From Lacrimispora xylanolytica (GTDB lineage Bacteria > Bacillota > Clostridia > Lachnospirales > Lachnospiraceae), in NCBI RefSeq assembly GCF_026723765.1, contig NZ_CP113524.1, positions 2,589,001 to 2,653,000 on the forward strand: a stretch of DNA of 64,000 nt. Reading direction: 5' to 3'. The translations under genes were made by a program, and so were the position numbers. Below the pieces are notes generated by a model. It was not told the origin of the DNA and made no database searches. It saw only the letters and a list, made by a program, of their open reading frames with translations. Below are positions 1 through 20,011 of this stretch, piece by piece; the first letter of the stretch is position 1; each line of letters opens with the position of its first letter.

Positions 1-169
1 ATTTTGCTTAAATAATTTCTTCCAAAACATATATTAACCTTTCTGCTGTTTTCGTTCCGTCCCCTGAATATCGCAGCAATAGAAACAAATCGCTTCCTAA
101 TTAATGTTATACACATAATATCGTTTTTAAAACTTATATCCTTGATTTGTTTCCTCACGCCTTATCTTA

Positions 170-830
170 ACACTCATAAAGTAAAACTTCATATGCTAGC
201 CAATCCACCGACCTCCCTAAATAAGTAATCGATGCTGCATATTGTTCCACAATTGTATAAGAGTTTTCAATGTATTCATGGGTATTAAAACAAATTGTTT
301 CATCACCCTGAACATTGCACTGTAAGGAATTACATATAAATGTAAAAATGAGATAATATCAAAACCCAAAATATCAGAGTCAATACACTGCCCCCGTGGA
401 ACCTCATTTCCCAGATGCTTCAAGTGATTTTGTATAATCGGAAGATATTATTCTGCCAGAGAAACTTCTAGAATCAAGAATGAGCCATCTGCAAAATAAT
501 TTTTATAAACACGTTGGGCATCTGCCAAGCATAAAAATCGGTCATATGTATCCAATAGATTTCGTTCAAATAAATTGCTTACTTCCATTAACAACTTTGT
601 AAAAGCTATATCATCCAAATTCCATCGTTTCCGATACTACTTTTTTCTCCCTCATGCCCCAGCAAAAAAGCAGCCAATAAAATCTTGATGTTGCTTGTTA
701 ATACAAGGACTAACCGAATACATCTGTTTAGAGAGTCCTTGAAGAAAATCTAGTGTAACAACTCTCTCATAAAGATTACATCCAATAACTTAAATGAAAC
801 ACTCACCTTTCAAATCAAAACTATTGTTGT
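170..830 (-). pseudogene. Decayed protein-coding gene, function unknown
   Basis: No intact gene is present, but the minus strand shows protein-like reading that jumps between frames. One stretch around 660-800 reads NLYERVVTLDFLQGLSKQMY. A second, around 446-620, reads as a continuous chain containing LFERNLLDTYDRFLCLADAQ. A third, around 173-315, contains NTHEYIENSYTIVEQYAAS and ends at a stop. The segments follow each other in order but are separated by frameshifts and stops, which is what a decayed gene of about 200 codons looks like. I do not recognise the family. It lies at the outer side of the accessory island. The boundaries are approximate and the claim that the pieces once formed one gene is an inference. 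Confidence 0.4.
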
Positions 831-1031
831 TACATTTACAATTGCTTTCTATCATACAAAAAAATATCGTAATCAATATAACAGATTTAATATAAGTAAA
901 AACATTATATTTCTTAATATTTTAAGAAGGATACGATTTCTAACATATTCCACTTCGATTCTTATTAACTCTACGATTTCTTATTTCCACTTTTATCAAT
1001 CAATTTGCAAAACAATTGCTCTTGTAAACTA

Positions 1032-2054
1032 TTATTTATGTTTATAATTTCTAATGAACTTACATTTTTTCTCGTCATAACATTTAGAAATATCGCTTGT
1101 TGTTCCATACTTAATATCTTCTTCCATAGCCTTTGCTAAGGCAATTCTTTCATGAGCAAAATTATCTTTCGCGCCTTTTTCAATAATTAAAGAAAGAAAT
1201 TCTCTATCAATATCTCTATACCCTTCTTTAAAAATTTCAATATGCTCTTTTAACATCTCTAATTGTAATTCCAAAGAATCATAAAATACATCAAAATGAC
1301 CCTTTATATTTTCAATGTCCTCCCCCTTTGCCAGTACTATATTTTCATATAATTTTGTAAAAACAAATAAAGTACATATTAATGCCCAAAAAGGCCCATT
1401 CACTTTTTCAGTAGAAAAACTCATGTTTTCACTCTCGAAATAACAATACATAATATCAAAGCTACAATGACTGTACTTACATAAAAAATCATACAATGGC
1501 CTAAAGTATGTCTGTTCGCTTTCGCCAACATATTTGGAAGGGCCTGATACTAATTGCCCCAAAAATTCATCTTTATCATTTATAATTACATACTTACCTT
1601 TTAGCTTGCCTTTTTTAGCATGCCCCATCGCCATTTCATATGGGTTCATAATGAAATCTACAATTGCTTTCTCCATTTTTTCAACATCTTTTGAGCGGAT
1701 TGATGTACGGATATATTGACTCATTATATAATTTTCCAAAAGACTCCTTACCAAAATAAGAACATCTTCATTCATAGGTAAATTATTATTATTTAACAGT
1801 TTCCTAATTGCCTTTAAGGTTTTTGTACTTTTAGTCATTACAAAATAATCAAATTCATATATGTATGTATACTTTGATGCACGACTTCCCCGCCCTCTAT
1901 CCAAACAATTCAAATATTCAATCAGACCATCCGGGGTGGCTAGGTTTTCACAAAATCGTTTCGAATATAGTATTAATCTATTAATTATTTTATATACTCT
2001 TGTGTAGAGATACTCTATTTTTTTTAAACGTTCTTTCTCTTCAATATTTTTCAA
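1032..2054 (-). CDS. DUF5677-like hypothetical protein
   Basis: An intact 340-codon gene of unknown biochemical role. The start is a TTG preceded by GAGGTG at a spacing of about 8 bases; no ATG nearby fits as well. The protein is helical, without signal peptide or membrane segments. The centre has a motif like ILVRSLLENYIMSQYI (about residues 100-115), followed by a segment with FLCKYSHCSFD (about 190-200). This pattern resembles DUF5677 proteins, which are often found in defence or accessory islands, but I judged it from pattern alone. It lies downstream of the RADAR genes on the same strand, separated by about 780 bases that contain a terminator, so it is probably a separate transcription unit. 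It could be an unrelated defence gene or cargo. Confidence 0.6.
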   Translation of the reverse strand: MKNIEEKERLKKIEYLYTRVYKIINRLILYSKRFCENLATPDGLIEYLNCLDRGRGSRASKYTYIYEFDYFVMTKSTKTLKAIRKLLNNNNLPMNEDVLILVRSLLENYIMSQYIRTSIRSKDVEKMEKAIVDFIMNPYEMAMGHAKKGKLKGKYVIINDKDEFLGQLVSGPSKYVGESEQTYFRPLYDFLCKYSHCSFDIMYCYFESENMSFSTEKVNGPFWALICTLFVFTKLYENIVLAKGEDIENIKGHFDVFYDSLELQLEMLKEHIEIFKEGYRDIDREFLSLIIEKGAKDNFAHERIALAKAMEEDIKYGTTSDISKCYDEKKCKFIRNYKHK

Positions 2055-2833
2055 TACTATTTCACCTCAATTTTATTTTGGAATTATCAATTCTATATAC
2101 TGATATCTAATCTTTCAATAATGGCTCATTTATAACTACATCACCGACTTGATCAAATTAATGTAAAGTTTTATATTATGTAAAATACGGTTAATTATTC
2201 TAGTATTTTATGCTTCATAAATATATATTCTTGATTACCCTTGTACAACAAAGATGAAAATTTCACAATTAAAAACAAGGCACATATTATTATTACTGCC
2301 CTTGTTTTATAAGACCGATTCATACACAATTAGGGGCAACTCATGATACTTTTTCAATTTAATTCGACAACCATTTTCACATTCCTTGTTGTTGTAATTC
2401 AAATGAAAGTATAGCCCAATACACCCTAGCGCTAAGATATGTTTATTATAAATAGCTACACTAATTATAACATAATAAATCTTGCTTTTTATATCTATTT
2501 ACTACCTATCATACCTATATAAAACCGTTATAAAGTAGCTTGAATAACTCTATTATAGCAGAATGGTTATTTTCATATAGCAAACAACGTTATTTACGAA
2601 TAAGGAATAATTGATATTTAGTACGCTATCTCTGATAGCACATTGGGCTCTATATAATTTCTACTAAAATTTTATTTCATATTATTTTTGTCCAACATAA
2701 TTGCCTAGCAAAAAGGCGATTATACTATGCATGTGTTCTTCAATTTCCTCAAAATTACATCACACTCATAGTACTAAAAAAATTGGTACCTATTTAACAC
2801 TGGTTCAATTAACTTTTAAAGATGGCGAATACT
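2055..2833. other. AT-rich intergenic region, no supported gene
   Basis: No convincing gene is seen in these roughly 780 bases. They are very AT-rich and contain scattered stops in all frames. A short minus-strand reading near 2695-2770 (EEIEEHMHSIIAFLLG) has no start or ribosome site and may be the last trace of a lost gene. The only structured element is a hairpin at 2271-2309, listed separately. Confidence 0.5.
2271..2309 (-). terminator. Intrinsic terminator-like hairpin
   Basis: The arms AAAACAAGG and CCTTGTTTT are complementary with a loop of about 19 bases. Read on the minus strand the hairpin is followed by a T-rich run. It would end transcripts coming from the membrane-protein gene about 520 bases upstream, before the DUF5677-like gene. 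The loop is long, so the call is moderate. Confidence 0.5.
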
Positions 2834-3511
2834 TTATATCAAGTCATCTTCAAGTATTTCGAAGTCACGATCTAATAAATCTTGTAATCTTATAACTATA
2901 TTTTTTTTCTTTTCTAATCTATTTCCATCAATTATTTCCATCAATTCTCTTGCCTGTAAAAATAAAAACATAAATAAACTAATAAAAGACAAAATATATA
3001 ATGCCATTATTATTATATCTTGAGCAGCAATTCCAGAAGTAATCCTTCCTACTGAAAATCCAACTACTGGTAAAATATATGTATTTAAAAATTTGATATT
3101 TCTCTCACCCCTGCGTTCACTTTCCCTTTCTATTTTTTCTATGGATTGATTATATCTCCGAATAAGTTGTTTTATTTTGTATTTTTCATATAAGTCATAT
3201 TTTTCTAATTTTAAAATATTTTTAAGAACGTCTAATGAATCAATATACTTATCCAAATTAATATTCCAATTCTTTCTATTAGAATGCTCCACAAGACTCA
3301 TTAAAACGTATACTATAAAAACGTACAAAAATAGTCCAATCAAAAAAATACTTTGGTACTTGAAATGAACATAAAGAGGTAACAATGAGAGACCCGAAAA
3401 AATAAATATCAATGTGATTTTATTCAATAAATTAGCTTGTGTTATATTTTTAACAAAATGATCTTTTTCATCTAATTTTGTTATATAAGTATTGAGTAAA
3501 TTTTCTATCAT
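2834..3511 (-). CDS. Putative RADAR accessory membrane protein (SLATT- or Csx27-like)
   Basis: A 225-residue membrane protein. The start at 3511 is chosen because GGAGG lies 5 bases upstream; an ATG four codons earlier has no ribosome site. It has two hydrophobic helices near residues 30-50 and 54-75, then about 65 charged, helix-forming residues rich in Lys and Glu (KLEKYDLYEKYKIKQLIRR), and a second hydrophobic pair near residues 145-185. It ends in an acidic tail. Some RADAR operons are known to carry a membrane protein of SLATT type or a Csx27-like protein next to rdrA and rdrB. Position, strand and architecture fit such a role. Four helices favour Csx27-like, while the helical cytoplasmic stretch after the first pair recalls SLATT; sequence reading alone cannot decide. 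A 275-base gap separates it from rdrB, so it may have its own promoter. Confidence 0.6.
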   Translation of the reverse strand: MIENLLNTYITKLDEKDHFVKNITQANLLNKITLIFIFSGLSLLPLYVHFKYQSIFLIGLFLYVFIVYVLMSLVEHSNRKNWNINLDKYIDSLDVLKNILKLEKYDLYEKYKIKQLIRRYNQSIEKIERESERRGERNIKFLNTYILPVVGFSVGRITSGIAAQDIIIMALYILSFISLFMFLFLQARELMEIIDGNRLEKKKNIVIRLQDLLDRDFEILEDDLI

Positions 3512-3786
3512 TGATTCCTCCATTGATTAATTTTTTGCCTTAAGTATTATTAGTATCTACTGCATCTTTTAATCTTACAATTCTTATAAGAATAGAATCC
3601 ACATTTTTTTACTTATCCTTAAATTGCATTTTCTAAATAATAATTCCTCTCCGAAAAAAATTCCTTTAAAACTCTTTTTTAACAAGCATTATATTGACAA
3701 AGAAGAAAATGCAGTTTTTAAGATAATTCTTTAAAATATCAAAATAAATCAATTATCATTTCCCTGCTTAGTATGAAGGTATTCTC

Positions 3787-6414
3787 TCAATCAGGATTCT
3801 TTGAAAAGTGGAACACTTGTTGTCTTCCAAAATCACTAATATCTTTTATCCACTGCTGTATGGCCTCTTTTGAATATCGTAGCAAGCCTTGTTCATCTCT
3901 ACTTTTTATAAGGGCTGTATACATAACAGCATATTCCATCTCTAGAGATGTATGAAAAATACCCTGATCATCTGTATTAATTGAAACATTCAGCCGTGAA
4001 GACGGGTGCATTGAAAGATTTTTCCCATACATACGCAATATCGGATGTTCTTCATATTTCTGAAAGGGCCCAATTAATTGATTAGAAGAAGGGTTACATT
4101 CCACCGCAATTTCTTTTATAGTGAGTATAAGTCGCAGTTCTTCTTGGATTTTGGTTATAAGTGGATAATAAAGTTCATTCACTTTCCAAATCTCGATCTC
4201 TGACCCCTTATCTCTCACCTCTTGATTAAAATGATAATCTCGATAATAATTACGGCATGCCTCTTCCATACGAATGTTTGTCATTTCCTCTCCTTCCAGA
4301 TAACAACATTCATTCATAGCATCTATTCCCACATAAAATTCATCCTTTAGGTATTCTTCAGGTCTATCGCCTCGCAGTTTCCATGCATTATAATAAACAA
4401 GAAATTCCAAGGATTCCTCCTCATACGTTGGCGCTGCTTCGCACTGAGCTTTCCGTACCTCTTCTGGCTGTTGCTGTTTTCTTTCCCGCATATATATTTC
4501 TTCCGAATACAATAGAAAACAGTTTCTCAGTTCATCCCTAACATCCTTATCAATCACAATACTATGTTCATAGCAAAATCCCAATACCCAGGTAACGTTA
4601 TCTAAGATTTCCAATTTTTCTAATACAGATCTGTTCTTTTTCAAACTATAGTAACTTTTCGCATCAATTCCTAATGCCATTCCATGCCCAATTCTACTAT
4701 GCTTTGGCAGATTGCAAAATCGAAGCGTTTCATCAATTGCACGCAAGCCACTGAAAATATCTAAGAAGTCTTCACCAACGTGATAAGTAAACTGTACCTG
4801 AGTTAAGCCACTCTTCTTATTATATTGCTGAAGTTGTCTGTAAAACTGGCCAAACACCTCGGGCCGACAGCCTATCTCACCTGCACAGGTATCATACCCT
4901 CGTACTCTCGGAATCTTACCATGATATTGATAATTAGACAGTTCTACTTTTAACAGAGCATAAGCTTCTCTTATTTGTTGATCTAAATAGTCACGAAGTT
5001 CATAATTTCTCGGTTTCAAATCAGCAAAGTCAGTATCTCTTCTTTTCGGAAAATGCAAAACATAAAAGAAATCCAACTGGCTGTCTTCCATTCTTCCATC
5101 ATAATATTCTATCCGTTTTAGTGTTTCAATATAATCTTTTGGAGTGATACGAAGTTCCATTGAAGAAATCGATTGTAATCTACTCAGTGACTTAACAGCT
5201 AAGTTCATAATTTGTTCTTGGTAGCAAGGATAATCCTCTATAAAATCCTCCTTGCGATCTTGATATTCTGCAAAATTTGAAAATCCTCTCTTCCCGTTTA
5301 CCTGTATCATCTCTGCTCTTATCCTCAAGCAAATAACCAAATAACGATAAAATATATTTTTTTCTAAATCCTCGAATTTATTATCAAATATAGCCTTAAA
5401 GCAACAGTATAGAAAATAACGCTCACCTATAACAGCAATCTGTTCCTTAAGAATTGGCCTTTGTTCACATTTTTTCTTGTATTCAGCCCATTCATCTCCC
5501 TTTGTGATAACATTATTCCATTCGTCACCAATTGCATAATCAAGACATTCTATTATTTCATATGAGTTCATAAACTTTTCATGCTCTGCACGACAAGCAT
5601 TAATCTGGTCTTGTAGTTCATTCAAATTCTCTTCTTCTAACTCCATTGTATTATAAATAGGCGAATTTAGAAAGATCTTATTCTGATGCAGTATATTATA
5701 GAGGTATAATCGATAAAATGCTGCTTGAAGGCAGTTATCCATAAGCAATAAATGATTCTGTTGTTTTTCTTCATAGAGATACTGTGGATCTAAAAACCTA
5801 TCAAAATGCTGAAAAAAAGTCTTATTAATATCTCCTATATGGTTCATCAAACAAACCCAGTTTAATGTGAATACTGGAATTGAGCCTTTTAAATGGAAAT
5901 GATTCTCCGCCATGTCAATCATTCCCACCTTTTTTTTATAAGTACTATCAAATGTGGGGAATGGTGTACATAGCCATTCTGATAATTCTTTCTTTTCAAT
6001 CGATGATTTGGCAAGAAGCGCAGCCATAAAAATCTCGTTTCCCATGCTTACTGAAAGTTCTCTCCAGCGCAATAGCTGTAAGTTATGTATTTCTTTTTTC
6101 TCCCCTGCATACTCTCTACAATAAAATTTAAACTCTTTCATTTCCAAAAAACACTCGGCAATATCAACAATAAAAGTAAATATACCATGTACAGCTTCTT
6201 TTCTTTTTTCTCCTTTTAGTCGGTATTGAAGCCATAGGTATATCTGTGTAATTTCATCACCGGAATAATGATTTAATACAGTTTTAGCAATTTCTAAAAA
6301 TCGTTTTTCGCTTATACTATTATAAGAAATATCTTTTTGACCCTTAATCAATTCAATTTCTGTATAGTTGACTCTTCGTAATAATAATTCTAAACATATT
6401 CTTTCTGTATCCAT
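3787..6414 (-). CDS. rdrB: RdrB, RADAR adenosine deaminase
   Basis: An 875-residue protein, far larger than metabolic adenosine deaminases (about 350 residues) but the size of RdrB. It carries the full set of deaminase metal and catalytic motifs, widely spaced: HFH at 172-174 (zinc), HVGED at 545-549 (catalytic Glu548), RIGHG at 574-578, and NTDD at 813-816 (zinc and catalytic Asp). ECNPSSN at 772-778 matches the conserved E-x-x-x-x-S-N signature before the final Asp motif. The roughly 370 residues between the first two motifs form a large insertion. In RADAR, RdrB forms large assemblies with RdrA, and phage infection triggers adenosine-to-inosine conversion in RNA or nucleotide pools, stopping growth. 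Only 3 bases separate it from the rdrA stop codon; it has a weak ribosome site of its own, so translational coupling is likely. No signal peptide: cytoplasmic. Confidence 0.88.
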   Translation of the reverse strand: MDTERICLELLLRRVNYTEIELIKGQKDISYNSISEKRFLEIAKTVLNHYSGDEITQIYLWLQYRLKGEKRKEAVHGIFTFIVDIAECFLEMKEFKFYCREYAGEKKEIHNLQLLRWRELSVSMGNEIFMAALLAKSSIEKKELSEWLCTPFPTFDSTYKKKVGMIDMAENHFHLKGSIPVFTLNWVCLMNHIGDINKTFFQHFDRFLDPQYLYEEKQQNHLLLMDNCLQAAFYRLYLYNILHQNKIFLNSPIYNTMELEEENLNELQDQINACRAEHEKFMNSYEIIECLDYAIGDEWNNVITKGDEWAEYKKKCEQRPILKEQIAVIGERYFLYCCFKAIFDNKFEDLEKNIFYRYLVICLRIRAEMIQVNGKRGFSNFAEYQDRKEDFIEDYPCYQEQIMNLAVKSLSRLQSISSMELRITPKDYIETLKRIEYYDGRMEDSQLDFFYVLHFPKRRDTDFADLKPRNYELRDYLDQQIREAYALLKVELSNYQYHGKIPRVRGYDTCAGEIGCRPEVFGQFYRQLQQYNKKSGLTQVQFTYHVGEDFLDIFSGLRAIDETLRFCNLPKHSRIGHGMALGIDAKSYYSLKKNRSVLEKLEILDNVTWVLGFCYEHSIVIDKDVRDELRNCFLLYSEEIYMRERKQQQPEEVRKAQCEAAPTYEEESLEFLVYYNAWKLRGDRPEEYLKDEFYVGIDAMNECCYLEGEEMTNIRMEEACRNYYRDYHFNQEVRDKGSEIEIWKVNELYYPLITKIQEELRLILTIKEIAVECNPSSNQLIGPFQKYEEHPILRMYGKNLSMHPSSRLNVSINTDDQGIFHTSLEMEYAVMYTALIKSRDEQGLLRYSKEAIQQWIKDISDFGRQQVFHFSKNPD

Positions 6415-6417
6415 CTC

Positions 6418-9066
6418 TTATATTGTTACAGACATTAAAGATCTGCGAATTGTATTATAATTTTTCGATAAAGATTCGTTAATCACATCAGAACTTTCAT
6501 AATTCTTTATATAATTATTTAGCTCAATGTTTAAATTAGTAAAACTATCACTTAAAAATGCTTGCTCCATAACAGTATAATCCCCCTTGTTATTTTCATA
6601 ATAATTCCTTAATTTATTTAATTTATTTTTATAATTTTGTACAGTACTATCTTTTCTAACAAATGATGGTATATTAGAAATTAACTTATCAAATGAGTCA
6701 CCAATCTCTGTCACATCATCTATTTTTACTTGTTCTAAATCATCTAAAATCGGAATCATAAGTTCCTCATCAATTTGCTCTTGCTTAGTCCGTTTTATGC
6801 TTTCCCAAAAGTAAGCTAATTCATTTACTAACTGACTATAATCTCCCTCAGGCTTGGGATTTATAATCCAAGCTATTTTTAAATCTATATAACTATTAAT
6901 CTGCAATAATCCCTCTATTAAACTCTTGAAAAAATGATTGTAGTAAACCTTAATATCATTATTTGTTCTGTCTTTAATATCTCGTGTACTTTCCAGATAT
7001 TGAGCTATATAATAGATTGCTTCCATATTACAAATCAAAATATTACAAAGTTCTATAAAATTTTTCCAATATGCAGATAACTCCTGCTCTAATTCTTCAG
7101 TAGCTTTTATCCCCCACTTTTCAGCACTAATATTATTAAAAACAATTTTACTATCAAGTTGTCTAATGAACAAATTGTTCAAGGAAAAATCTGCTTTTGT
7201 TGCCACCATATTATTATCAGATACCATCCCTATTGTAGCTGAATCTTTTGTCCATTTGAAGGTTGATACACACCCAATCGTATACAAATGTTTTTTTAAA
7301 TGCATCTCGCCATTATCAAATCTATTGAAATAGTTTCGTACTGCCGATACATTAATATTGGCAATATCTATTAAACCTGACTTTTCACCTCCTATCTTTT
7401 CAATAGATCTCTTCCAATACTCTGCAACATCGTATTTATAATGAAGCCTTGATTTATTATAAAAATTTCCTGTCTCCTCTCTAATCAGCTGGCAAATACC
7501 AAACATATCTTCACCAACAAATTCCTGTAATTTCCCTTTGGCGTTATCATAATTCAATTTAAGCATAATTATTGAAATATAGGTATTTATAGCAAAGAGT
7601 AAATTATTTAAATCATATCCCCTTACCCTATAGCACAAGCGAATACAGTTTATAATATCTCCATTATTAGGTCTCCTCCTTTCTTTCATCACTAATTCAA
7701 ACTCTTTCTGTACACTACTTTCTAGAATATCCATATGAATTGATGTATCTAAGAACCCATTATTAGAAAGCCACTTACATAAATAAATGAAAATAATAGC
7801 CTGAACATCTTTCAGCCCTATCTGCCTAAGGGATACAAACCATTGTCTTTCCTTTTCTTCCAAATGATTTTCAGCCCAGGAGTCAAATAAATAATCTTCA
7901 AACAAATCTATATTTCTTTTCTTATCCCTCTCTCCCATATTACCAATTACCGAAACCATACCGACAAGCTCGCGGAGCGTATTAGGGATAAGAGGATGAA
8001 CTTCGTCTTCTTTAGCAATCAAAACCAACCCTGTCTTCTTGTATAATACATTCATAAGCCCTTTTTCAATTCCCAACTTATGAGAGTCAAAAATAATTTT
8101 TTTACCATTTCGATAAAGAATATTAACTACACTAGTTCCATCGCTTGCAATTGTTCTGATATCTGGAAGCATAATTCTTCTTGTCTGAGGAAGTAGTTTT
8201 TCCAAATATTTATTTGCCATATTTTTTGCTTCCAAATTGATATCCCAACGGGAAGATTGCTCTAATCCTTCCATATCCAGCAAAAATTGCCTTTCTACAC
8301 AAAAGGTCAACTGCTTAATATTCACTGCCATAACAATAATCAGTTCTGGGATTATCATATATTTCCGAATTTGCTCCATCATTTTATATGCTGAACTGAT
8401 GTTTAAATCCAAGTCATCAAGGCAAACCATTAATATTTTTTTATTTCGATATTTCAGATATTCTCTTACTAACACTTGAACATCATTCTTTAAATTCATA
8501 CTGTCAGCAATATCTACTAGATTTTGTATAGATCCGTTATAAATATATTCGTCTTTGATAAACCTTTCCGAATTTTTCAACACTGCAAGATTCTTATGTA
8601 CCTTTTGAAATAATGTCGACATTTTAAACAATTGATCGCGATTTTGATTAACAACATTTTCACCAAATGATTGACTATTGTTCTGATTCATTGCTTTATC
8701 TATCCTATATTGCTCAAATATCCTTGATATAACAATATCTAAAATATCATGTACCGTCTCCATGGCTGTTGGGTCTATTGTTTCCAATACCTCTATATTG
8801 TCATCATTTTTCAAATTATATGTAAAATGAATCATGGCACTACTCTTTCCCTGTCCACGCTCTCCGCAAAATGCAATTATATTATTAAGATGCTCCCATA
8901 TATTCTTTTTAGAATTATCCGCTTCTATTTTTTTATAATATGTTACCAAGCTATCTTTAATCTCATTTGCCATTTTATATTGATCCCAAAATATATCTTC
9001 ACTTATCTCAGTTTGACTATCATAAATTTTAAATTCATTTCCTTGTTCAATAATTATTCTTCTCAT
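6418..9066 (-). CDS. rdrA: RdrA, RADAR KAP-family P-loop ATPase
   Basis: An 882-residue ATPase. The Walker A motif GERGQGKSS lies at residues 68-76, and a Walker B-like ILMVCLDDLDLN at about 211-222, with the DDxD pattern typical of KAP NTPases. The remainder is helical without recognisable enzymatic motifs and without clear membrane segments. KAP-type RdrA partners with RdrB in RADAR defence; RdrA is the proposed sensor and scaffold. The protein length and the tight gene order rdrA-rdrB match characterised systems. The start has AGGG about 7 bases upstream and GAGG slightly further. About 255 AT-rich bases without a gene lie upstream and should hold the promoter. Alternative: a generic KAP ATPase defence protein, but the adjoining deaminase makes RADAR far more likely. 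Confidence 0.88.
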   Translation of the reverse strand: MRRIIIEQGNEFKIYDSQTEISEDIFWDQYKMANEIKDSLVTYYKKIEADNSKKNIWEHLNNIIAFCGERGQGKSSAMIHFTYNLKNDDNIEVLETIDPTAMETVHDILDIVISRIFEQYRIDKAMNQNNSQSFGENVVNQNRDQLFKMSTLFQKVHKNLAVLKNSERFIKDEYIYNGSIQNLVDIADSMNLKNDVQVLVREYLKYRNKKILMVCLDDLDLNISSAYKMMEQIRKYMIIPELIIVMAVNIKQLTFCVERQFLLDMEGLEQSSRWDINLEAKNMANKYLEKLLPQTRRIMLPDIRTIASDGTSVVNILYRNGKKIIFDSHKLGIEKGLMNVLYKKTGLVLIAKEDEVHPLIPNTLRELVGMVSVIGNMGERDKKRNIDLFEDYLFDSWAENHLEEKERQWFVSLRQIGLKDVQAIIFIYLCKWLSNNGFLDTSIHMDILESSVQKEFELVMKERRRPNNGDIINCIRLCYRVRGYDLNNLLFAINTYISIIMLKLNYDNAKGKLQEFVGEDMFGICQLIREETGNFYNKSRLHYKYDVAEYWKRSIEKIGGEKSGLIDIANINVSAVRNYFNRFDNGEMHLKKHLYTIGCVSTFKWTKDSATIGMVSDNNMVATKADFSLNNLFIRQLDSKIVFNNISAEKWGIKATEELEQELSAYWKNFIELCNILICNMEAIYYIAQYLESTRDIKDRTNNDIKVYYNHFFKSLIEGLLQINSYIDLKIAWIINPKPEGDYSQLVNELAYFWESIKRTKQEQIDEELMIPILDDLEQVKIDDVTEIGDSFDKLISNIPSFVRKDSTVQNYKNKLNKLRNYYENNKGDYTVMEQAFLSDSFTNLNIELNNYIKNYESSDVINESLSKNYNTIRRSLMSVTI

Positions 9067-9321
9067 ACTTAATCCCTACCTCAATATCCTTTATATATTT
9101 AAACACTACGAATTATTGAAAAATTTATTTTTATTCTTTAGATTAAATTTATTAGTAACTATAAGTAATAATTCCTACGCTATAGATTACATATAAAATA
9201 TAATACTAGTAAAGATAATACTCTTTTTCCTTTACTAATCAGTGTTTTGATGCCTTAATAACTATGCTTTTTCAATATTTTAAAATTAGTTCTCTTTAAA
9301 TAAGTCCATCACATAATATAT

Positions 9322-9612
9322 TTAATAAAAAATGTCACAAATTCTGTTGGCTGTTTCCTTGTCAAATCCAGCTTCATCAACCGAAATAGAAATTTCGAAA
9401 TATATGCCTTTTTCATCATCTTGTATCTTCTTTGACTTTTTGTGATTTTGATAATATGTATATGCTTTTTCATAGACTGGATCTAATTTATTTATCAATA
9501 TCCACTTAGGTTTATCCCAAGCCCGCAAGGAAGCGGCAATTGAATCAAATCTCGGTTCTACCAAACTAATATCAATTTGTTGATTTAAAAACTCCTCCCT
9601 CACCACTCTCAC
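9322..9612 (-). CDS. Small hypothetical protein or fragment of a broken ATPase gene
   Basis: A 96-codon reading frame with a GTG start. It is soluble and charged; recognisable stretches are FDSIAASLRAWDKPKW and DEKGIYFEISISVDEAGFD. I do not recognise the family. Upstream on the same strand is a broken AAA ATPase fragment whose last readable segment (ANYAQFDIYLEEVPRKLVEI) runs into the start of this frame. It is therefore likely that this ORF is the next part of the same decayed gene after a frameshift rather than an independent gene. An AGGAG lies just upstream of the GTG, so independent translation cannot be excluded. It sits between rdrA and the recombinase relic. Confidence 0.35.
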   Translation of the reverse strand: MRVVREEFLNQQIDISLVEPRFDSIAASLRAWDKPKWILINKLDPVYEKAYTYYQNHKKSKKIQDDEKGIYFEISISVDEAGFDKETANRICDIFY

Positions 9613-9895
9613 TCCTGGGATTCCAAATTTCTACCAACTTCCGCGGAACTTCCTCCAAATATATATCAAATTGAGCATAATTTGCTACCCCCCATCTTTA
9701 CTAACATGAAAATCCGACTTTGAAAAAAATATATCCTTTCTGTATGTCACAGTTGTATAAACAATCCTAAGCACATCTATTACAAAAGATTTTCCAGAGT
9801 TATTTTCACCAATTATTGCATATACACCTTTATTAAAGATTAGTGATATGTCGTCTTCTTTTATAATATTTTTTTATATACATACAATTCTCCCC
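9613..9895 (-). pseudogene. Broken AAA ATPase N-terminus (OLD/RecF-like)
   Basis: The minus strand encodes a clear ATPase start: DISLIFNKGVYAIIGENNSGKS, in which GENNSGKS is a Walker A motif of the type seen in OLD-family nucleases, RecF-like and related AAA proteins. It continues FVIDVLRIVYTTVTYRKD and then hits a stop near 9690. The reading resumes in another frame as FDIYLEEVPRKLVEIWNPR. No start codon with a ribosome site fits. The gene is thus frameshifted and lacks its C-terminal half. Such ATPases are common in defence islands (OLD, Gabija-like, retron-associated). Which one this was cannot be told from about 90 codons. Confidence 0.6.
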
Positions 9896-10285
9896 CTCAT
9901 TTATAAATATTTTCAAAGAATTTATCTATCTTGCAATTGCCCGTTTATATTTATCCACCGATTCTTTCTTCATCGATTTTTATCTTAAAAAATCTTTCTA
10001 TCAGTTGTTTCTATATATTTGATTATATATGCAAAATCATTATATCTCAACATAATAATTCAACAATATATATGAGTCAGAAAATACATTAACTTCTGTC
10101 TGACATATAAAAACATATATCAATATTTCTTGCTTCACCTAGATTCCATAAATCCAAGTAACTACATTCGTACTAATGATTTAAATATATTCGAGGTTAA
10201 AAGAAATTAGTTTATATTATAATAAAAGAATTTTCTACTCAAATAAATATCTTTTTCATACATATTTAAAGCCACACTTGAATTT
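9896..10285. other. AT-rich region, nothing recognised
   Basis: About 390 bases of very AT-rich sequence between two pseudogenes. Both strands are broken by frequent stops. I see no RNA gene, strong hairpin or promoter that I can defend. Confidence 0.5.
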
Positions 10286-11160
10286 TTTAACATATATCTC
10301 TATTCAGATACCTCAAATCTATAGTTTACAAATGTAATATTGTTCTGAGCCAGATACGTAAATGATAATTTGCTTTCCATATACATCTATTCTCTTTACT
10401 TAATCTTTCTAAATTGATTCTTTGTAGGAATTTCCCTACACTGTATCATCAATAGAATACTCTTAATTTCATCATCTTTTAAAGTATTTGAATCTCCACG
10501 AACTTCTGTCCCTTCCTTTATTTCAGTCCCACATCTCTATACGATTTATCCACGTTGCGTTCGACGACAATAACTTCCACCACAGTTTTCTCACTTAGAT
10601 AGATTACCTAATAAATATTTACTACTATATCCATTTCCAGTGCAAATCCGTTCTCCATCTTCATCTAAAACCACCCGCCCCCTTCGAAATATGTCATCCT
10701 GAACCTGGTGAAAACATTAAGGAATATAATTCCTTCATTATTCCCCGTAACATAACACTTCTGCGCCCACAATTAACTTTCATCTTTCCGGTAAGATAAT
10801 ATAAGTTTTTTAAATCATAACATCTCTCTTATACTCTTCACAATTTAAATTTTTCCAAGTTACAGTATTTGCCCAAGTTGTCCAGCACGTTTCTCAAAAC
10901 CCGACTGATAGACTTAGTCAATATGCTATTGATATGACCAGCTCGTACGATGGTCATCAAATCATTTAATACACTACACTTTGATTTTCTCAGACAAATC
11001 TCGCAGTTGAAAAAATGCCTGCGAATTCCCACTCTGAATTATTCAAAATCATACTCATTTGCATTTCTAAACTGTTATATTGTTCTTCAAATTTCATGCT
11101 GATATGGCAATAGGCCACAACCCATTTTTATAGTTTACACTGCTTTACAAATCTCTTACT
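10286..11160 (-). pseudogene. Decayed large serine recombinase
   Basis: Ordered fragments of a serine recombinase can be read on the minus strand in shifting frames. Near 11120-11030: VAYCHISMKFEEQYNSLEMQ followed by NNSEWEFAGIF, matching the N-terminal catalytic block (AYCRVST...EEQLNSLEAQ) and keeping the Ser. Near 11010-10850: RAGHINSILTKSISRVLRN, matching the GKID-ITKSISRFARNT block. Near 10740-10640: remnants resembling the NNHEAII...VQ region and a DDIFRRGRVVLDEDG segment. Near 10590-10470: ENCGGSYCRRTQRG, RCGTEIKEGTEV and DSNTLKDDEIKS, matching the zinc-ribbon domain (one of the usual cysteines is lost). The whole is about 870 bases, against 1500 or more for an intact gene, so it has frameshifts and internal deletion. 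It lies immediately past the rRNA methyltransferase 3' end and so probably was the integrase of the element carrying the island. Confidence 0.75.
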
Positions 11161-11192
11161 GGTAATTTTATAACCTTTTTCATATGTTTTTC

Positions 11193-11247
11193 TTGATACA
11201 TAAACAGCGTGAAAATTTGAATAACTTTCACGCTGTTTGTGTATCAA
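11193..11247. terminator. Strong bidirectional terminator after the rRNA methyltransferase gene
   Basis: A near-perfect inverted repeat: the left arm starts TTGATACA and the right arm ends GTATCAA, with a GC-richer core around ACAGCGTGAAA/TTTCACGCTGT. It lies 12 bases past the stop of the minus-strand methyltransferase gene and between it and the recombinase relic. T-rich stretches flank both sides. Confidence 0.85.
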
Positions 11248-11259
11248 ATATTCAATTTT

Positions 11260-12621
11260 CTAATTTACCACCCGCTGCAACAGAACGCAACATTCTGTAT
11301 TCGCTGTTGAAGGAAACATGTCCACACAACAAACCTTCTCCACCTTATAACCTCTCTCCTGTAACACCACCAAATCCCTCACAAGGCTGGTAGGCTTACA
11401 AGAAACATAAACCAGCTTATCCACTCCAAAATCAATAATCTTGCCTAATGCTTTTGGATGTATCCCATCTCTAGGAGGATCAAGCACAATCAAGTCAGGC
11501 TTGTCCTGTAACTCATCAATAATCTTTAATACATCACCAGCAATGAATTCACAGTTCTCAAGCCCGTTACGCTTCGCATTCTCCCTTGCTGCCTCTACAG
11601 CCTCTTCAACAATCTCAACACCCACTACCTTTTTAGCTACAGGAGCCAGAATCTGAGCAATGGTACCAGTTCCGCTGTATAAGTCAAATACCACCTTATC
11701 CTTTGTCTCCCCAACGTAGCCTCTTGTAGTTTCATACAATACTTCTGCACCTAGAGAATTCGTCTGGAAGAAGGAAAACGGTGAAATTTTAAATTTCAGT
11801 CCCAAAAGCTCCTCAAAAAAGAAATCCTGTCCATATAAAATATCAGTCCGGTCATTCTTTACCACATCAGCAAGACTATCATTAAATGTATGAAGAATTC
11901 CAACAATTGTACCATTTAAAGACAAACCAAGCAAAAGATCCGTTAATGGCTGTAAGTCCATCTCTTCCTGACTTGTCGTTACCAGGTCAATTAAAATCTC
12001 GCCCGTCTTAATGGCACGTCGCACCAGAAGGTGGCGTAAATATCCGGTATGCTGCATTTTCTTATAAAATCCAGTTCCTTTTTCCTCAAAATATCCCTTT
12101 ACAGCCTTTAAAATATCCGTAAAATCAGAATTAACGATCTGGCAGTTACCTGTTGTTACCACATCGTAAAAGCTTCCCCTCTTATGCATGCCAAGGGCCA
12201 AAGGACCATCCTTAAACTCATCTCCAAAGGAAAACTCCATCTTATTCCGATATCCATCTTCTATAGGACTGCCCTTGATTCCTTCAAATACATAATCCTC
12301 ACAAACACTGTCAATCAGATCTTTAACCTGTTTCTCTTTAATCTTCAACTGCTCCTCATAAGGAAGTGTCTGGTACGTACATCCGCCGCATATCCCAAAA
12401 TGAGGACAAGGATTCTCTGCGGTCTCAAGCTTAGAAGGCTCTAAAACTTCAAGAACCCGGCCCTCTACCTTTCCACCTCGTTTTTTATTGATCATCACAC
12501 GAACCTTTTGTCCTGGCAATGTGTGCTTTATTCCTATTTTACCTTCCGGCAGTTCTATATAACCCTTATCCGGGAAATCGAACCGGCCTATGATACCTTC
12601 GTATATCTCACCCTTTTTCAC
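11260..12621 (-). CDS. rlmD: 23S rRNA (uracil-5-)-methyltransferase
   Basis: A 453-residue enzyme that methylates C5 of a uridine in 23S rRNA using S-adenosylmethionine; Gram-positive members may modify two positions (RlmCD type). An N-terminal TRAM-like RNA-binding segment (about 1-60) is followed by the iron-sulfur motif CPHFGICGGC (about residues 72-81). The methyltransferase fold is at the C-terminus: DLYSGTGT (SAM binding), LDPPRDGIHPKAL, and YVSCKPTSLVRDL with the nucleophilic Cys. It starts with GTG, chosen because AGGAG lies 8 bases upstream. The gene is monocistronic, with terminators on both sides. The rum gene family is a known integration site for streptococcal mobile elements, which fits the recombinase relic found just past its 3' end. 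Confidence 0.92.
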   Translation of the reverse strand: MKKGEIYEGIIGRFDFPDKGYIELPEGKIGIKHTLPGQKVRVMINKKRGGKVEGRVLEVLEPSKLETAENPCPHFGICGGCTYQTLPYEEQLKIKEKQVKDLIDSVCEDYVFEGIKGSPIEDGYRNKMEFSFGDEFKDGPLALGMHKRGSFYDVVTTGNCQIVNSDFTDILKAVKGYFEEKGTGFYKKMQHTGYLRHLLVRRAIKTGEILIDLVTTSQEEMDLQPLTDLLLGLSLNGTIVGILHTFNDSLADVVKNDRTDILYGQDFFFEELLGLKFKISPFSFFQTNSLGAEVLYETTRGYVGETKDKVVFDLYSGTGTIAQILAPVAKKVVGVEIVEEAVEAARENAKRNGLENCEFIAGDVLKIIDELQDKPDLIVLDPPRDGIHPKALGKIIDFGVDKLVYVSCKPTSLVRDLVVLQERGYKVEKVCCVDMFPSTANTECCVLLQRVVN

Positions 12622-12661
12622 TCTTCTGACTCCTATCCTTTTTTATTCCTGACCGAGCAAA

Positions 12662-12689
12662 AAGCGTGTCTCACTGACTGAGGCACGCT
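12662..12689 (-). terminator. Intrinsic terminator
   Basis: AAGCGTGTCTCA pairs with TGAGGCACGCT around a short loop. On the minus strand it is followed by TTTTTGC. It ends the transcript of the small membrane protein gene and insulates the methyltransferase gene. Confidence 0.85.
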
Positions 12690-12712
12690 CCTTCTCTATA
12701 ATAATGCCAATC

Positions 12713-13006
12713 TTATTGTTCCGTAGCTTCGACAGCCTGATCGTCTTCAAAAAAATCATCGTCGAAATCATCATCAAAATCATCTTCAAAATCTTCCAGA
12801 TAATCCGGTGTGAAGAAGCGGTAAACGGTATAGGCGATGCCTGCCACCGCTGCCACAGCTCCTACTATAGCCAGTATCCAGAGAATACAATTTTTCTTCT
12901 TTTCTTCCTGTTCTCTTTTATGAAGCAATTCATTCACTCTGCTTGAGTTCATAAGATCTTCCAGTTTGCTCATAGCCTCTTTGCTCATTGCATCAAATCT
13001 GTTCAT
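12713..13006 (-). CDS. Small membrane protein with acidic C-terminal tail
   Basis: A 97-residue protein of unknown function. I place the start at 13006 (MNRFDAMSKEAM), where AAGGA is about 9 bases upstream; the longer reading starts with TTG and has no ribosome site. Residues 1-35 are charged and helical, residues about 38-60 form one membrane helix (CILWILAIVGAVAAVAGIAYTV is its core), and the tail is extremely acidic (runs of DD, ED and FEDDF). Such single-pass proteins with acidic tails are common in Lachnospiraceae next to housekeeping genes. It is about 145 bases downstream of pcrA on the same strand and ends at a strong terminator. Confidence 0.75.
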   Translation of the reverse strand: MNRFDAMSKEAMSKLEDLMNSSRVNELLHKREQEEKKKNCILWILAIVGAVAAVAGIAYTVYRFFTPDYLEDFEDDFDDDFDDDFFEDDQAVEATEQ

Positions 13007-13151
13007 GTCTCCACGTCCTTTCTGAGAGCCTTGCTTTTTAAATCCTGGCAAAGGTTTGTCTCTCTGCCTATCGCAGTTATTATACCATTATATTGGGTCT
13101 TTTACTATCATTTTCACAATTTTTTTGAATTTTATGTATTGATTATTGTTT

Positions 13152-15428
13152 TTATAAAAGTTTTAGTTTTGCGAAGGATGCAAACATCTTTTTAACCCCT
13201 GCTTTATCAAACTGGACTGTGACCTCAAAGTCTCTTCCGCCGTCCTTAATTTCCATGACAAGTCCTTCTCCAAACTTGATGTGGCTGACCCTGTCGCCTT
13301 CCTTATAGCTTAAGGAAGATGGTTTTTCTACAGTAAATGCTTTTCCAAAGCCAGGAGATGAGGCGGGTTTTGCAGTTTTAGATGCATATGCATTGTTTCC
13401 AGGCCCAAAGCTACTGACACCGGCAGACCGCCCTGCCTTTCCCCATGGTAGTGCACTGTCATCAAAATCAGCTCCCGTGCGGATTTTTGAGATTCTTGGC
13501 TCCAGCCTGCTGGAATCCAGAAGGTGATCCGGAATCTCTTCAATAAAGCGGCTTACCTTACTGTACCTGGTCTCTCCATTTACCATACGCTGTCTTGCTG
13601 AAGTCATCATTAAAAAGTTCTGGGCTCTTGTGATTCCCACATAACAAAGTCTCCGCTCTTCTTCCACCTCTTCCTTATCATCGGAGGAAATAGACATCAT
13701 GCTTGGGAAGAGACCATCTTCCATTCCGGTTAAATACACCCGGGGGAATTCAAGTCCTTTGGCGCTGTGAAGCGTCATGAGAGTCACTCTGTTTTCCGAG
13801 TCATCCATACGGTCTACATCAGCCACCAGAGCCACTTCTTCCAGGAATTCATTAAGATCCGGATGCTCATGGTCTCCTTCAAAGCTTACGGCCTTGTTAA
13901 TCAACTCCTCGATATTTTCAAGACGGGTCTGGTACTCGATTTCCCCTTCTGCTTCCAGCTCTTTTAAGTATCCAGTCTCATCAAGTACATCTTCAATCAG
14001 TTCGTGAATGGTGTAAGCCTCTTCTGACATTCTATTACGGAAGTCTTCAATCAGCTCAGTAAATACAAGGACCTTATCAGCTGCCTTTCCAAGTCCCGGG
14101 ACCGCTTTTGCCCGGCAAAAGGCATCGTAAATGTCAAAGCCGCGTTCTGATGCAAACGCCTGAATCTTACCAAGGCTGGTGGCACCGATTCCACGCTTGG
14201 GGACATTGATAACTCTTAAGGCGGAAAGGTCATCCTTACCATTGGCAATGGTCTTTAAATAAGCCAGGATATCCTTGATTTCTCTTCTCTGATAGAAATT
14301 GACGCCTCCTACCATACGATAGGGAACATTGTGCTGAAGACATTTTTCTTCAATGAGACGGGACTGAGCATTGGTCCGATAAAGTACGGCACAATCCTGA
14401 TAATCGGACGGGCTGTTTAAAATATCCCGGACAATGGCATCCGCTTCCTCAGAAGCATTATCAAACTGCTTAAACTGCACCAGAGGGCCTTCGTCATTGG
14501 CTGTCCAAAGGGTTTTGTCCTTACGGCCTCTGTTGTGGCGTATGACCTCATTGGCTGCATTTAAGATGCTCTGGCTGGAACGGTAATTTTGCTCCAGCTT
14601 AATGACCACGGCTCCTGGGTATGATTTTTCAAAGTTCAATATATTTTCAATGTTTGCGCCTCGAAACTTATAGATGGACTGGTCATCATCACCTACTACG
14701 CACAGATTTTTATATTTCCCAGCCAACAGACTGACAAGCTTAAACTGGGCTGTATTGGTATCCTGGTACTCATCCACCAATATGTATTTAAAGCGCTCCT
14801 GGTAATAATTTAAGATCTCCGGGCTGCCTTCAAAAAGCTGCACTGTTTTCATGATAAGATCATCAAAATCAAGGGCATTGTTCTTTTTCAACTGGCTTTG
14901 GTACTCTTTATAGACCTGAGCCACCTTTTTTTGCCTGAAATCACCGGAGGCGTTCAGTTCAAACTCTACAGCTGAAATCAGCTCATTTTTGGCGGTGGAG
15001 ATTACAGATAGCATGGCACGATCCTTATAAAGCTTTGGATCCATTTCCAGGCTTTTTAAGACGTTGCGCATGAGAGTTTTCTGATCATCCGTATCATATA
15101 TGGTGAAATTTGTGGTATATCCCAGGCTTTCTATGTGTCTTCTTAAAATACGTACACAAGAGGAATGAAAGGTAGAAACCCATATGCTGTCGGCTCCAAA
15201 GCCCACCAGCTTGTCCACACGTTCCCTCATCTCTCCTGCTGCCTTATTGGTAAAGGTAATAGCAAGAATGTTCCACGGGTTGATTCCCTTTTCTTCTATA
15301 AGATAGGCAATTCGGTGTGTAAGTACTCTGGTCTTTCCTGACCCGGCTCCTGCCAGCACAAGAAGCGGTCCCTCCGTATGGAGAACCGCCTCCTTCTGCA
15401 TTGGATTTAATGTATCGTAAATACTCAT
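13152..15428 (-). CDS. pcrA: ATP-dependent DNA helicase PcrA/UvrD
   Basis: A 758-residue superfamily 1A 3'-5' helicase, the normal length for PcrA. Motif I is LAGAGSGKT (about residues 26-34), motif Ia ITFTNKAAGEMRER, motif II VDEYQDTN, motif III VGDDDQSIYKFRGA, motif IV EQNYRSSQ, and motifs V-VI TLHSAKGLEF and ERRLCYVGITRAQ. The last 60 residues (YKEGDRVSHIKFGEG) form the Tudor-like tail that contacts RNA polymerase in PcrA. It acts in nucleotide excision repair, plasmid replication and removal of stalled polymerases. Its start is 3 bases after the stop of the patatin-like gene, so the two are likely co-transcribed. Confidence 0.95.
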   Translation of the reverse strand: MSIYDTLNPMQKEAVLHTEGPLLVLAGAGSGKTRVLTHRIAYLIEEKGINPWNILAITFTNKAAGEMRERVDKLVGFGADSIWVSTFHSSCVRILRRHIESLGYTTNFTIYDTDDQKTLMRNVLKSLEMDPKLYKDRAMLSVISTAKNELISAVEFELNASGDFRQKKVAQVYKEYQSQLKKNNALDFDDLIMKTVQLFEGSPEILNYYQERFKYILVDEYQDTNTAQFKLVSLLAGKYKNLCVVGDDDQSIYKFRGANIENILNFEKSYPGAVVIKLEQNYRSSQSILNAANEVIRHNRGRKDKTLWTANDEGPLVQFKQFDNASEEADAIVRDILNSPSDYQDCAVLYRTNAQSRLIEEKCLQHNVPYRMVGGVNFYQRREIKDILAYLKTIANGKDDLSALRVINVPKRGIGATSLGKIQAFASERGFDIYDAFCRAKAVPGLGKAADKVLVFTELIEDFRNRMSEEAYTIHELIEDVLDETGYLKELEAEGEIEYQTRLENIEELINKAVSFEGDHEHPDLNEFLEEVALVADVDRMDDSENRVTLMTLHSAKGLEFPRVYLTGMEDGLFPSMMSISSDDKEEVEEERRLCYVGITRAQNFLMMTSARQRMVNGETRYSKVSRFIEEIPDHLLDSSRLEPRISKIRTGADFDDSALPWGKAGRSAGVSSFGPGNNAYASKTAKPASSPGFGKAFTVEKPSSLSYKEGDRVSHIKFGEGLVMEIKDGGRDFEVTVQFDKAGVKKMFASFAKLKLL

Positions 15429-15431
15429 AAA

Positions 15432-16313
15432 TTATACCGTCTCTTCCTTTCCTTCCTCTTCTATCCCCAAATACCGCTTCAAATCATCTAAATTGGCCTC
15501 AGCAAGCCTTCTTCCGTCTTCATAGAGGGATTCCAGCTTCCGCTTATCCTGTTCCGTTCTTTGCACGGTTACATGCTTATCCGGGCGTATGACAAATATC
15601 CGGCCTTCTGCCTCCAGCTGATCAATCTCTTCCTGCATCCGGTTATACCGTTCTGGCACATCCTGAAGAGCCTTTAAAAGCTTTGGCAGCGGTCCAAAAT
15701 ACCGCTCATATCCCTTTTTCGTCCATTTATCAAGAAGAGGCTTCCGATACCCCTTCTCTCTGGTAAGAATCACCACAACCTTTTCATATCCAAGGTCTAT
15801 GGCTCTTTGATAGGCTACTGGCATAGAACAGCCTCCATCCAGATACTTCTTCCCATTCACAGAAATCATACTGGACAGAACCGGAATACTGCTTGAAGCT
15901 TTTACGGCACTGATAAAATCCTCACTGGTGCTTTTTTCAAAGTACTCCGGCTTTCCAGTCTTACATCTGGTGGCGACCACCTCAAAAATCTGCCTGGAAT
16001 TGTTAAATGTATCATAATCAAAGGGAACCAGGGTATCGCTTAATTCCCCGAATAAAAAGTCAAAGTTAAATATGGAACGGTTTCTTACCATGTTGCGGAA
16101 GCTTAAAAACCGTTTGTCTCTCACGTAATCCAGATTGACTCTGATGGTCCGGCCCGATTGTTTGCTGATGTAGCTCATACCCGACATGGAGCCGGCAGAA
16201 ACGCCGTTTACATAGGATAATTCTATCTCCTGTTCAATTAATACGTCTAAGACTCCGGCTGTAAAAACGCCGCGAAGGGATCCTCCCTCCAAAACCAATG
16301 CTCCTTCTGTCAT
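15432..16313 (-). CDS. Patatin-like phospholipase
   Basis: A 293-residue patatin-fold esterase of the RssA type. The oxyanion-hole motif GGSLRG is at residues 10-15, the nucleophile elbow GVSAG at 37-41 (Ser39), and the catalytic Asp lies in LDGG near residue 165. It has no signal peptide, so it acts in the cytoplasm or at the inner membrane face on lipid esters; the substrate is unknown. The start follows GAGGTGATAAAAG. It is the first gene of a pair with pcrA (3-base gap) and lies about 60 bases downstream of the ABC exporter genes on the same strand, so read-through from them is possible. Confidence 0.88.
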   Translation of the reverse strand: MTEGALVLEGGSLRGVFTAGVLDVLIEQEIELSYVNGVSAGSMSGMSYISKQSGRTIRVNLDYVRDKRFLSFRNMVRNRSIFNFDFLFGELSDTLVPFDYDTFNNSRQIFEVVATRCKTGKPEYFEKSTSEDFISAVKASSSIPVLSSMISVNGKKYLDGGCSMPVAYQRAIDLGYEKVVVILTREKGYRKPLLDKWTKKGYERYFGPLPKLLKALQDVPERYNRMQEEIDQLEAEGRIFVIRPDKHVTVQRTEQDKRKLESLYEDGRRLAEANLDDLKRYLGIEEEGKEETV

Positions 16314-16375
16314 CTTTTATCACCTCGACTTCTATTCTATTGCATTTCTCCCATCCGGTCAATCCCTTTTAAAGT

Positions 16376-19869: not shown

Positions 19870-19919
19870 ACTTCCTCCTTTAAACATTTTTAAACTTGTT
19901 AATTTCTGCCCAAATATAG

Positions 19920-19960
19920 AAAAAAACCGAAAAAAACAGCGCAAAGCGGTCTTTTTCGGT
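19920..19960 (-). terminator. Second terminator-like hairpin in the exporter leader
   Basis: On the minus strand ACCGAAAAA pairs with the later TTTTTCGGT, with an inner CGC-TTT-GCG stem, and the hairpin is followed by seven T. It lies 50 bases before the exporter start codon and directly after the first terminator. Two such structures in series in front of a gene suggest a transcription checkpoint rather than an ordinary gene end. Confidence 0.7.
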
Positions 19961-19966
19961 AAATTC

Positions 19967-20011
19967 TCAAAAAAATAACCGCAGCCCATACAGACTGCGG
20001 TTCATACACAT
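19967..20011 (-). CDS. 14-codon ORF overlapping the attenuator hairpin
   Basis: ATG at 20011 is preceded by AGGAG at a spacing of about 9 bases. It reads MCMNRSLYGLRLFF and stops at TGA just after the terminator stem. A ribosome translating it would cover and melt the stem at 19977-20002, which would let RNA polymerase pass. This is a proposal from the layout: no coding-bias test is possible on so few codons. It could also be chance that AGGAG and ATG are so placed. Confidence 0.35.
   Translation of the reverse strand: MCMNRSLYGLRLFF
19969..20002 (-). terminator. Intrinsic terminator / candidate attenuator before the ABC exporter
   Basis: Arms AACCGCAG and CTGCGGTT form a perfect 8-bp stem with a 10-base loop, followed on the minus strand by ATTTTTTT. 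It lies between the 35-codon leader ORF and the exporter genes. An upstream AGTCT (20030-20034) can pair with AGACT (19992-19996) in the loop and 5' arm, one possible alternative fold. Confidence 0.8.

Follow-up and report, generated by a model that had tools for sequence, protein, structure and literature searches.

RADAR is described in PMC9994260 as a heptameric RdrA and a dodecameric RdrB, the latter converting ATP to ITP, and the same source counts 270 genomes with it among about 38,000, spread over 75 genera and 7 phyla. Small membrane proteins, either Csx27 (rdrC) or SLATT (rdrD), are reported in known subtypes (PMC7699616, PMC11676413). The literature is divided over whether RADAR acts mainly on RNA or on free nucleotides: a commentary presents RADAR as RNA editing (PMC7699616), and titles of other PDB entries mention an 'RNA-loading state', whereas the mononucleotide view comes from PMC9994260. 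RADAR of Streptococcus suis shields E. coli from T2, T4 and T6 (PMC9994260). Since that system has been tested, the family spans 7 phyla (PMC9994260) and the S. suis RdrA structure 8fnu is in the PDB, the novelty that the original prediction attached to RADAR outside Gram-negative hosts does not hold, and the pair analysed here is a new member of an already known system.

In the 64,000-nucleotide stretch of Lacrimispora xylanolytica DNA analysed here (the window), rdrA (6418 to 9066, 882 aa) lies upstream of rdrB (3787 to 6414, 875 aa) on the same minus strand with a gap of 3 bases, and a gene for a 229-aa membrane protein (2834 to 3523, minus strand) begins 263 bases after rdrB. All three open reading frames start with ATG; their positions, the 3-base gap and the motifs that had been named were confirmed in the ORF list and the sequence. 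We read rdrA and rdrB as a RADAR of two genes, complete and intact, from a divergent lineage of clostridia, with a defence function assigned by analogy, and give this reading a probability of roughly 93%.

RdrA is the AAA+ ATPase of the pair and carries both nucleotide-binding motifs: a Walker A, GERGQGKSS (residues 68-76; 8839 to 8865, minus strand), in which G71, G73 and K74 are invariant among 44 aligned sequences, and a Walker B, DDLD (residues 217-220; 8407 to 8418, minus strand), in which D217, D218 and D220 are invariant in the same alignment. The profile search against the RdrA and RdrB families that had been proposed as a check gave a PADLOC RdrA match at 1.1e-13, and the top NCBIfam match was RdrA NF041743 at 76.1 bits, under the equivalog cut-off of 600. 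The RdrA family profile matched the S. suis protein 8fnu at positions 65-854 of 858, and when the RdrA model was searched with Foldseek, all 20 matches at E <= 0.001 were RdrA, the best being 8fnu_A (E 4.5e-14). The original label of 'KAP-type ATPase' stood in part: Pfam KAP gave no match, the best Pfam family being AAA_22 (E 0.016, 16 bits versus a cut-off of 27), although 8fnu itself is named 'KAP NTPase domain-containing protein' in the PDB.

RdrB, the adenosine deaminase, matched PADLOC RdrB as its top family at 5.5e-26, and its top NCBIfam match was RdrB NF041744 at 141.6 bits; the equivalog cut-off of 800 was not reached, and the lineage is therefore divergent. Four deaminase motifs, all on the minus strand, are present in it. 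HFH (residues 172-174; 5893 to 5901) holds zinc histidines H172 and H174, which fall on H152 and H154 of E. coli RdrB in a weak first block of 14 bits; HVGED (545-549; 4768 to 4782) holds zinc histidine H545 and catalytic E548, on H498 and E501; RIGHG (574-578; 4681 to 4695) holds zinc histidine H577, on H530; and NTDD (813-816; 3967 to 3978) is invariant and lies within a Pfam A_deaminase match (5.6e-11 over 758-852). The E. coli numbering is that given in PMC9994260. H172, H174, H545, E548, H577, D815 and D816 are invariant in an alignment of 25 sequences, made up of the window's RdrB and 24 relatives taken from the best 120 of 252 homologs; these relatives are 31-76% identical to the window protein, which excludes a chance match. 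With the single RdrB sequence, E. coli RdrB in the PDB was found at 1.1e-20, in two blocks only, and with the 25-sequence profile at 1e-53, the four zinc histidines and the catalytic glutamate being in register. On the RdrB tree the window lineage belongs to a well separated clostridial RADAR branch of four rows (support 100), and a search of viral contigs returned 6 RdrB loci at 27-38% identity.

Gene order was surveyed at the best 80 loci among 402 RdrB relatives detected in genome contigs. In 71 of these 80 other loci, rdrB had an RdrA ORF, either entire or fragmentary, directly upstream on the same strand. Among the nine without that order, the gene caller gave no RdrB ORF in two (L016, L054), rdrA or rdrB appeared as more than one ORF in four (L034, L037, L038, L040), and no RdrA ORF was found in three (L044, L049, L051). 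This linkage bears on whether the window merely pairs a large adenosine deaminase of metabolic type with the gene of an unrelated ATPase, without RADAR function. Pfam, which gives A_deaminase and otherwise only sub-threshold ATPase families, would allow such an arrangement, but the metabolic deaminase models of NCBIfam score at most 36.5 bits on RdrB against 141.6 for the RdrB model, and together with the Foldseek matches, the profile matches and the 71/80 linkage this rules it out, leaving it a negligible probability. The identification of the pair as RADAR was thus upheld by PADLOC, NCBIfam, PDB profile and Foldseek matches specific to RdrA and RdrB. A decayed, non-functional RADAR inside a decaying island is improbable as well: the island holds a probable recombinase relic and rdrA of Lacrimispora celerecrescens is split into two ORFs, but both window ORFs are full length and keep their catalytic residues.

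The oligomers, substrate, trigger and defence role of this intact RADAR pair are taken over from published work on the E. coli, Citrobacter and S. suis systems. By that analogy, RdrA would assemble into an AAA+ ring, respond to phage infection and dock on a shell of RdrB, and RdrB would deaminate adenine nucleotides, turning ATP into ITP and dATP into dITP, which would poison the infected cell and stop the phage. As the target we favour nucleotides over RNA, for the window pair again by analogy. A divergent Gram-positive RdrAB pair should be a useful test of the RdrB features behind the ATP preference.

In the same survey, two protein families were observed directly upstream of rdrA in other genomes. 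In 11 of 80 loci this position was taken by family c1 (594-723 aa; gaps -68 to 231) and in 9 of 80 by c2, a TPR-like family of 406-478 aa (gaps -44 to 75) with a second copy in one locus (L047). In the 76-row RdrB tree, a branch of 15 (support 99) contained 10 c1 rows and a branch of 10 (support 100) contained 9 c2 rows, unlabelled rows on those branches not being counted. A c1 search of 15 genomes gave exactly one match in 12 and none in 3, with 11 of the 12 having supplied rows of the profile. For three members of each family there was neither a PADLOC match nor a Pfam match over cut-off, and a PDB profile search with c1 returned one match, at 0.064, to an unrelated protein. By eye, a motif in c1 resembles that of a phosphoribosyltransferase; we found no report of RADAR with a phosphoribosyltransferase or TPR partner among open-licence papers. 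Both families look like unlisted RADAR partners, which suggests that some RADAR clades carry upstream partner genes unnamed by Pfam and PADLOC models, and the novelty of this side finding may exceed that of the window pair.

The RADAR genes reside in a region that differs between related genomes. The right edge of this variable region lies at 11300 to 11310, in the 3'-terminal part of a gene of the rRNA-methyltransferase type (11260-12621), the flank matches of three relatives starting at 11299-11300; near the 3' end of this gene the window diverges from all three immediately after the FPSTAN codons, and the relatives also diverge from each other within a short distance. No RdrB match was found in a same-species genome (G321), which also lacks most of the island: its left-hand homology, about 99% but 91% over the final 0.6 kb, reaches to a point 5.7 kb outside the window, the homology begins again at 11300, and about 0.85 kb separates the two homologous flanks. 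In another relative (G397), the interval from -1289 to 11299 is occupied by 6.6 kb of other genes. Within the genus, RdrB was found in 2 of 25 genomes, the window's own included, the other (G402) being taken as L. celerecrescens. A probable recombinase relic (10405 to 10848, minus strand) is 36% identical by blastx, across 157 aa, to a partial ORF in the L. celerecrescens hotspot that by eye resembles a recombinase, and the small ORF next to the relic (10838-11032) gave a PHROG 95 integrase match at E 0.0015. Because the relatives diverge at the edge of the rRNA-methyltransferase-type gene and a probable recombinase relic is present, we read the RADAR-bearing region, from its sequence, as an integration hotspot holding a variable island. 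GC content is 26-35% over 1-12000 and 37-48% in the remaining window. Repeats are present in 1-12000; promoter-like sites occur at chance level (71 found, 69.4 expected); Rfam gave no match over gathering scores in 1-20000, and the window contains no tRNA. A further island neighbour (1032 to 2054, minus strand) encodes a 340-aa DUF5677 protein (Pfam 32.3 bits, cut-off 27.1) with no PADLOC match.

The 229-aa protein encoded after rdrB is hydrophobic, with three hydrophobic stretches by a simple hydropathy count, and its AlphaFold2 model, built from 11 sequences, is all-helical at low confidence (mean pLDDT 66.2); Foldseek found nothing for this model in the PDB at E <= 0.001. Weak similarity to KwaA was seen at 9.1e-5 in PADLOC and 1.3e-4 in NCBIfam (21.8 bits, cut-off 100), and to 8xMP at 2.6e-4 (21.3 bits, cut-off 30). 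A KwaA family search of the genome found the gene at 5.5e-4, an 8xMP family search of the same genome did not, and hhalign of the 229-aa family against three KwaA proteins gave a probability of 27.5% over 38 columns. PADLOC returned no Csx27 match up to E 0.1, the same library finding Csx27 beside RADAR in another locus (L069), and no SLATT-named match appeared up to E 0.1 in PADLOC, Pfam or NCBIfam. For one homolog (P0006) a DUF4231 match was seen at 18.5 bits, under the cut-off of 24.7; we take DUF4231 to be SLATT-like. Assignment of the protein to Csx27, SLATT or KwaA is thus not supported, there being no Csx27 or SLATT-named match in these libraries and the KwaA score lying far under its cut-off. 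Among the open-licence papers listed we found no report of KwaA together with RADAR and none of the 8xMP membrane family.

Relatives of this protein are few. Three of the 13 listed are the protein itself or 100% identical copies, and the other ten are 32-45% identical. The family had no match in plasmids and phages, and 121 pattern matches in viral contigs yielded 0 confirmed members. In overlapping genome samples its profile was found in 4 of 397 genomes of the family, 1 of 295 of the order and 2 of 391 of the class, the window's own genome included each time, with matches beyond that genome at 20.8-34.9 bits. Two of the three distant relatives in the 397 family genomes adjoin a DUF6414-type protein (L083 by Pfam, L084 by eye), and the third adjoins HNH- and methyltransferase-like ORFs (by eye).

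The original prediction made this gene RADAR's own accessory, and one could place its product, as a new membrane component such as a membrane sensor or second effector, where Csx27 (rdrC) or SLATT (rdrD) stands in the known subtypes with small membrane proteins (PMC7699616, PMC11676413). The gene comes next after rdrB on the same strand, none of the 5 terminator-like sites in 1-12000 falls between the two, and the product is small, hydrophobic and helical with a weak similarity to KwaA of Kiwa; a near-identical strain, moreover, probably has a copy (P0003) along with a 99% identical RdrB (P0014), the longest contigs for both being 10189. Against this stand the 263-base gap and the neighbours of the three distant relatives, and by eye the longest contigs of the 32-45% identical homologs match in length none of those given for 120 listed RdrB relatives. 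An 11-row profile of the family, furthermore, found it in 0 of the 80 other RdrB loci, several of them truncated at a contig end, and beside the L. celerecrescens RADAR, whose RdrB is 76% identical, DNA similarity to the window breaks off at 3804, where rdrB ends, with no 229-aa gene following. The gene is thus not a recurrent RADAR component, and we consider the membrane-component explanation unlikely. A rare, undescribed accessory, not Csx27, with no SLATT-named match and distantly KwaA-like, that would couple RADAR to a membrane signal in one lineage, is doubtful too. The accessory claim is therefore not supported, and the 229-aa membrane gene, a neighbour of the pair, is most likely a separate cargo gene of the island. 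These results settle which genes are supported as RADAR parts in this genome and add to RADAR an intact member of a clostridial branch that stands well apart.

Compared with known systems, the locus resembles Kiwa only in the weak KwaA-like stretch of the 229-aa protein, and no kwaB match was found among the neighbours tested. Like the RADAR subtypes associated with Csx27 or SLATT, it has a gene for a small membrane protein close to rdrAB, but this protein gave no match named for either family in PADLOC, Pfam or NCBIfam. E. coli RADAR has an RdrB active site in register with that of the window protein, whereas its RdrA is matched by the window RdrA profile in the ATPase part only and its RdrB, by single sequence, in two blocks. 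S. suis SS993 RADAR, also from a Gram-positive host, has an RdrA (8fnu) that the profile matches along most of the protein at E 1.7e-23 and that is the best Foldseek match, although identity in the structure alignments is 15-17% and the comparison covers RdrA alone. L. celerecrescens 152B RADAR differs in its split rdrA, its other cargo genes and the lack of the 229-aa membrane gene, but it lies in the same hotspot, on the same side of the same rRNA-methyltransferase-type gene, and its RADAR DNA is 76% identical to that of the window, a divergence similar to that of the flanking genes (77-88%).

Among the 80 best RdrB loci, kept from 402 RdrB relatives, rdrA is directly preceded in 11 by a gene of one protein family, c1 (L039:3134-5032, L064:3005-4789, L066:3308-5131, L068:3193-5037, L079:535-2370 and six other loci), whose members are 594 to 723 aa long. 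A profile search with c1 returned a single match per genome in 12 of 15 genomes, 11 of these 12 having themselves supplied rows of the profile, and three members run against Pfam and PADLOC gave no PADLOC match and none above the Pfam cut-off. We regard c1 as a possible undescribed RADAR partner.

The position directly upstream of rdrA is occupied in nine of the same 80 loci by a second family, c2, of TPR-like proteins of 406 to 478 aa (L030:4252-5490, L035:4101-5537, L048:4019-5290, L069:2475-3872, L078:3840-5270 and four others). Nine of the 10 rows in one branch of the RdrB tree are c2 loci. Further genes lie beside RADAR in two c2 loci: a Csx27 homolog 3' of rdrB in L069 (9206-9847; PADLOC, 4.2e-11) and, directly 3' of RADAR in L078 (10519-12534), a protein with Thoeris-type SIR2, STALD and TIR domains.

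When the window was compared with three relatives, the sequences parted directly after the same codons, within 11260-11310, and this 3' end of an rRNA-methyltransferase-type gene is probably an integration hotspot. In the RADAR locus of Lacrimispora celerecrescens, rdrA (L002:5330-7997) is present as two ORFs of 812 and 87 aa.

Two loci from genomes of the bacterial family to which the window belongs, L083 (532-2121) and L084 (1405-2982), encode a DUF6414 protein, assigned by Pfam match in the former and by eye in the latter, followed by a 225- to 228-aa membrane protein distantly akin to that encoded next to rdrB in the window; the two genes appear to form a unit.
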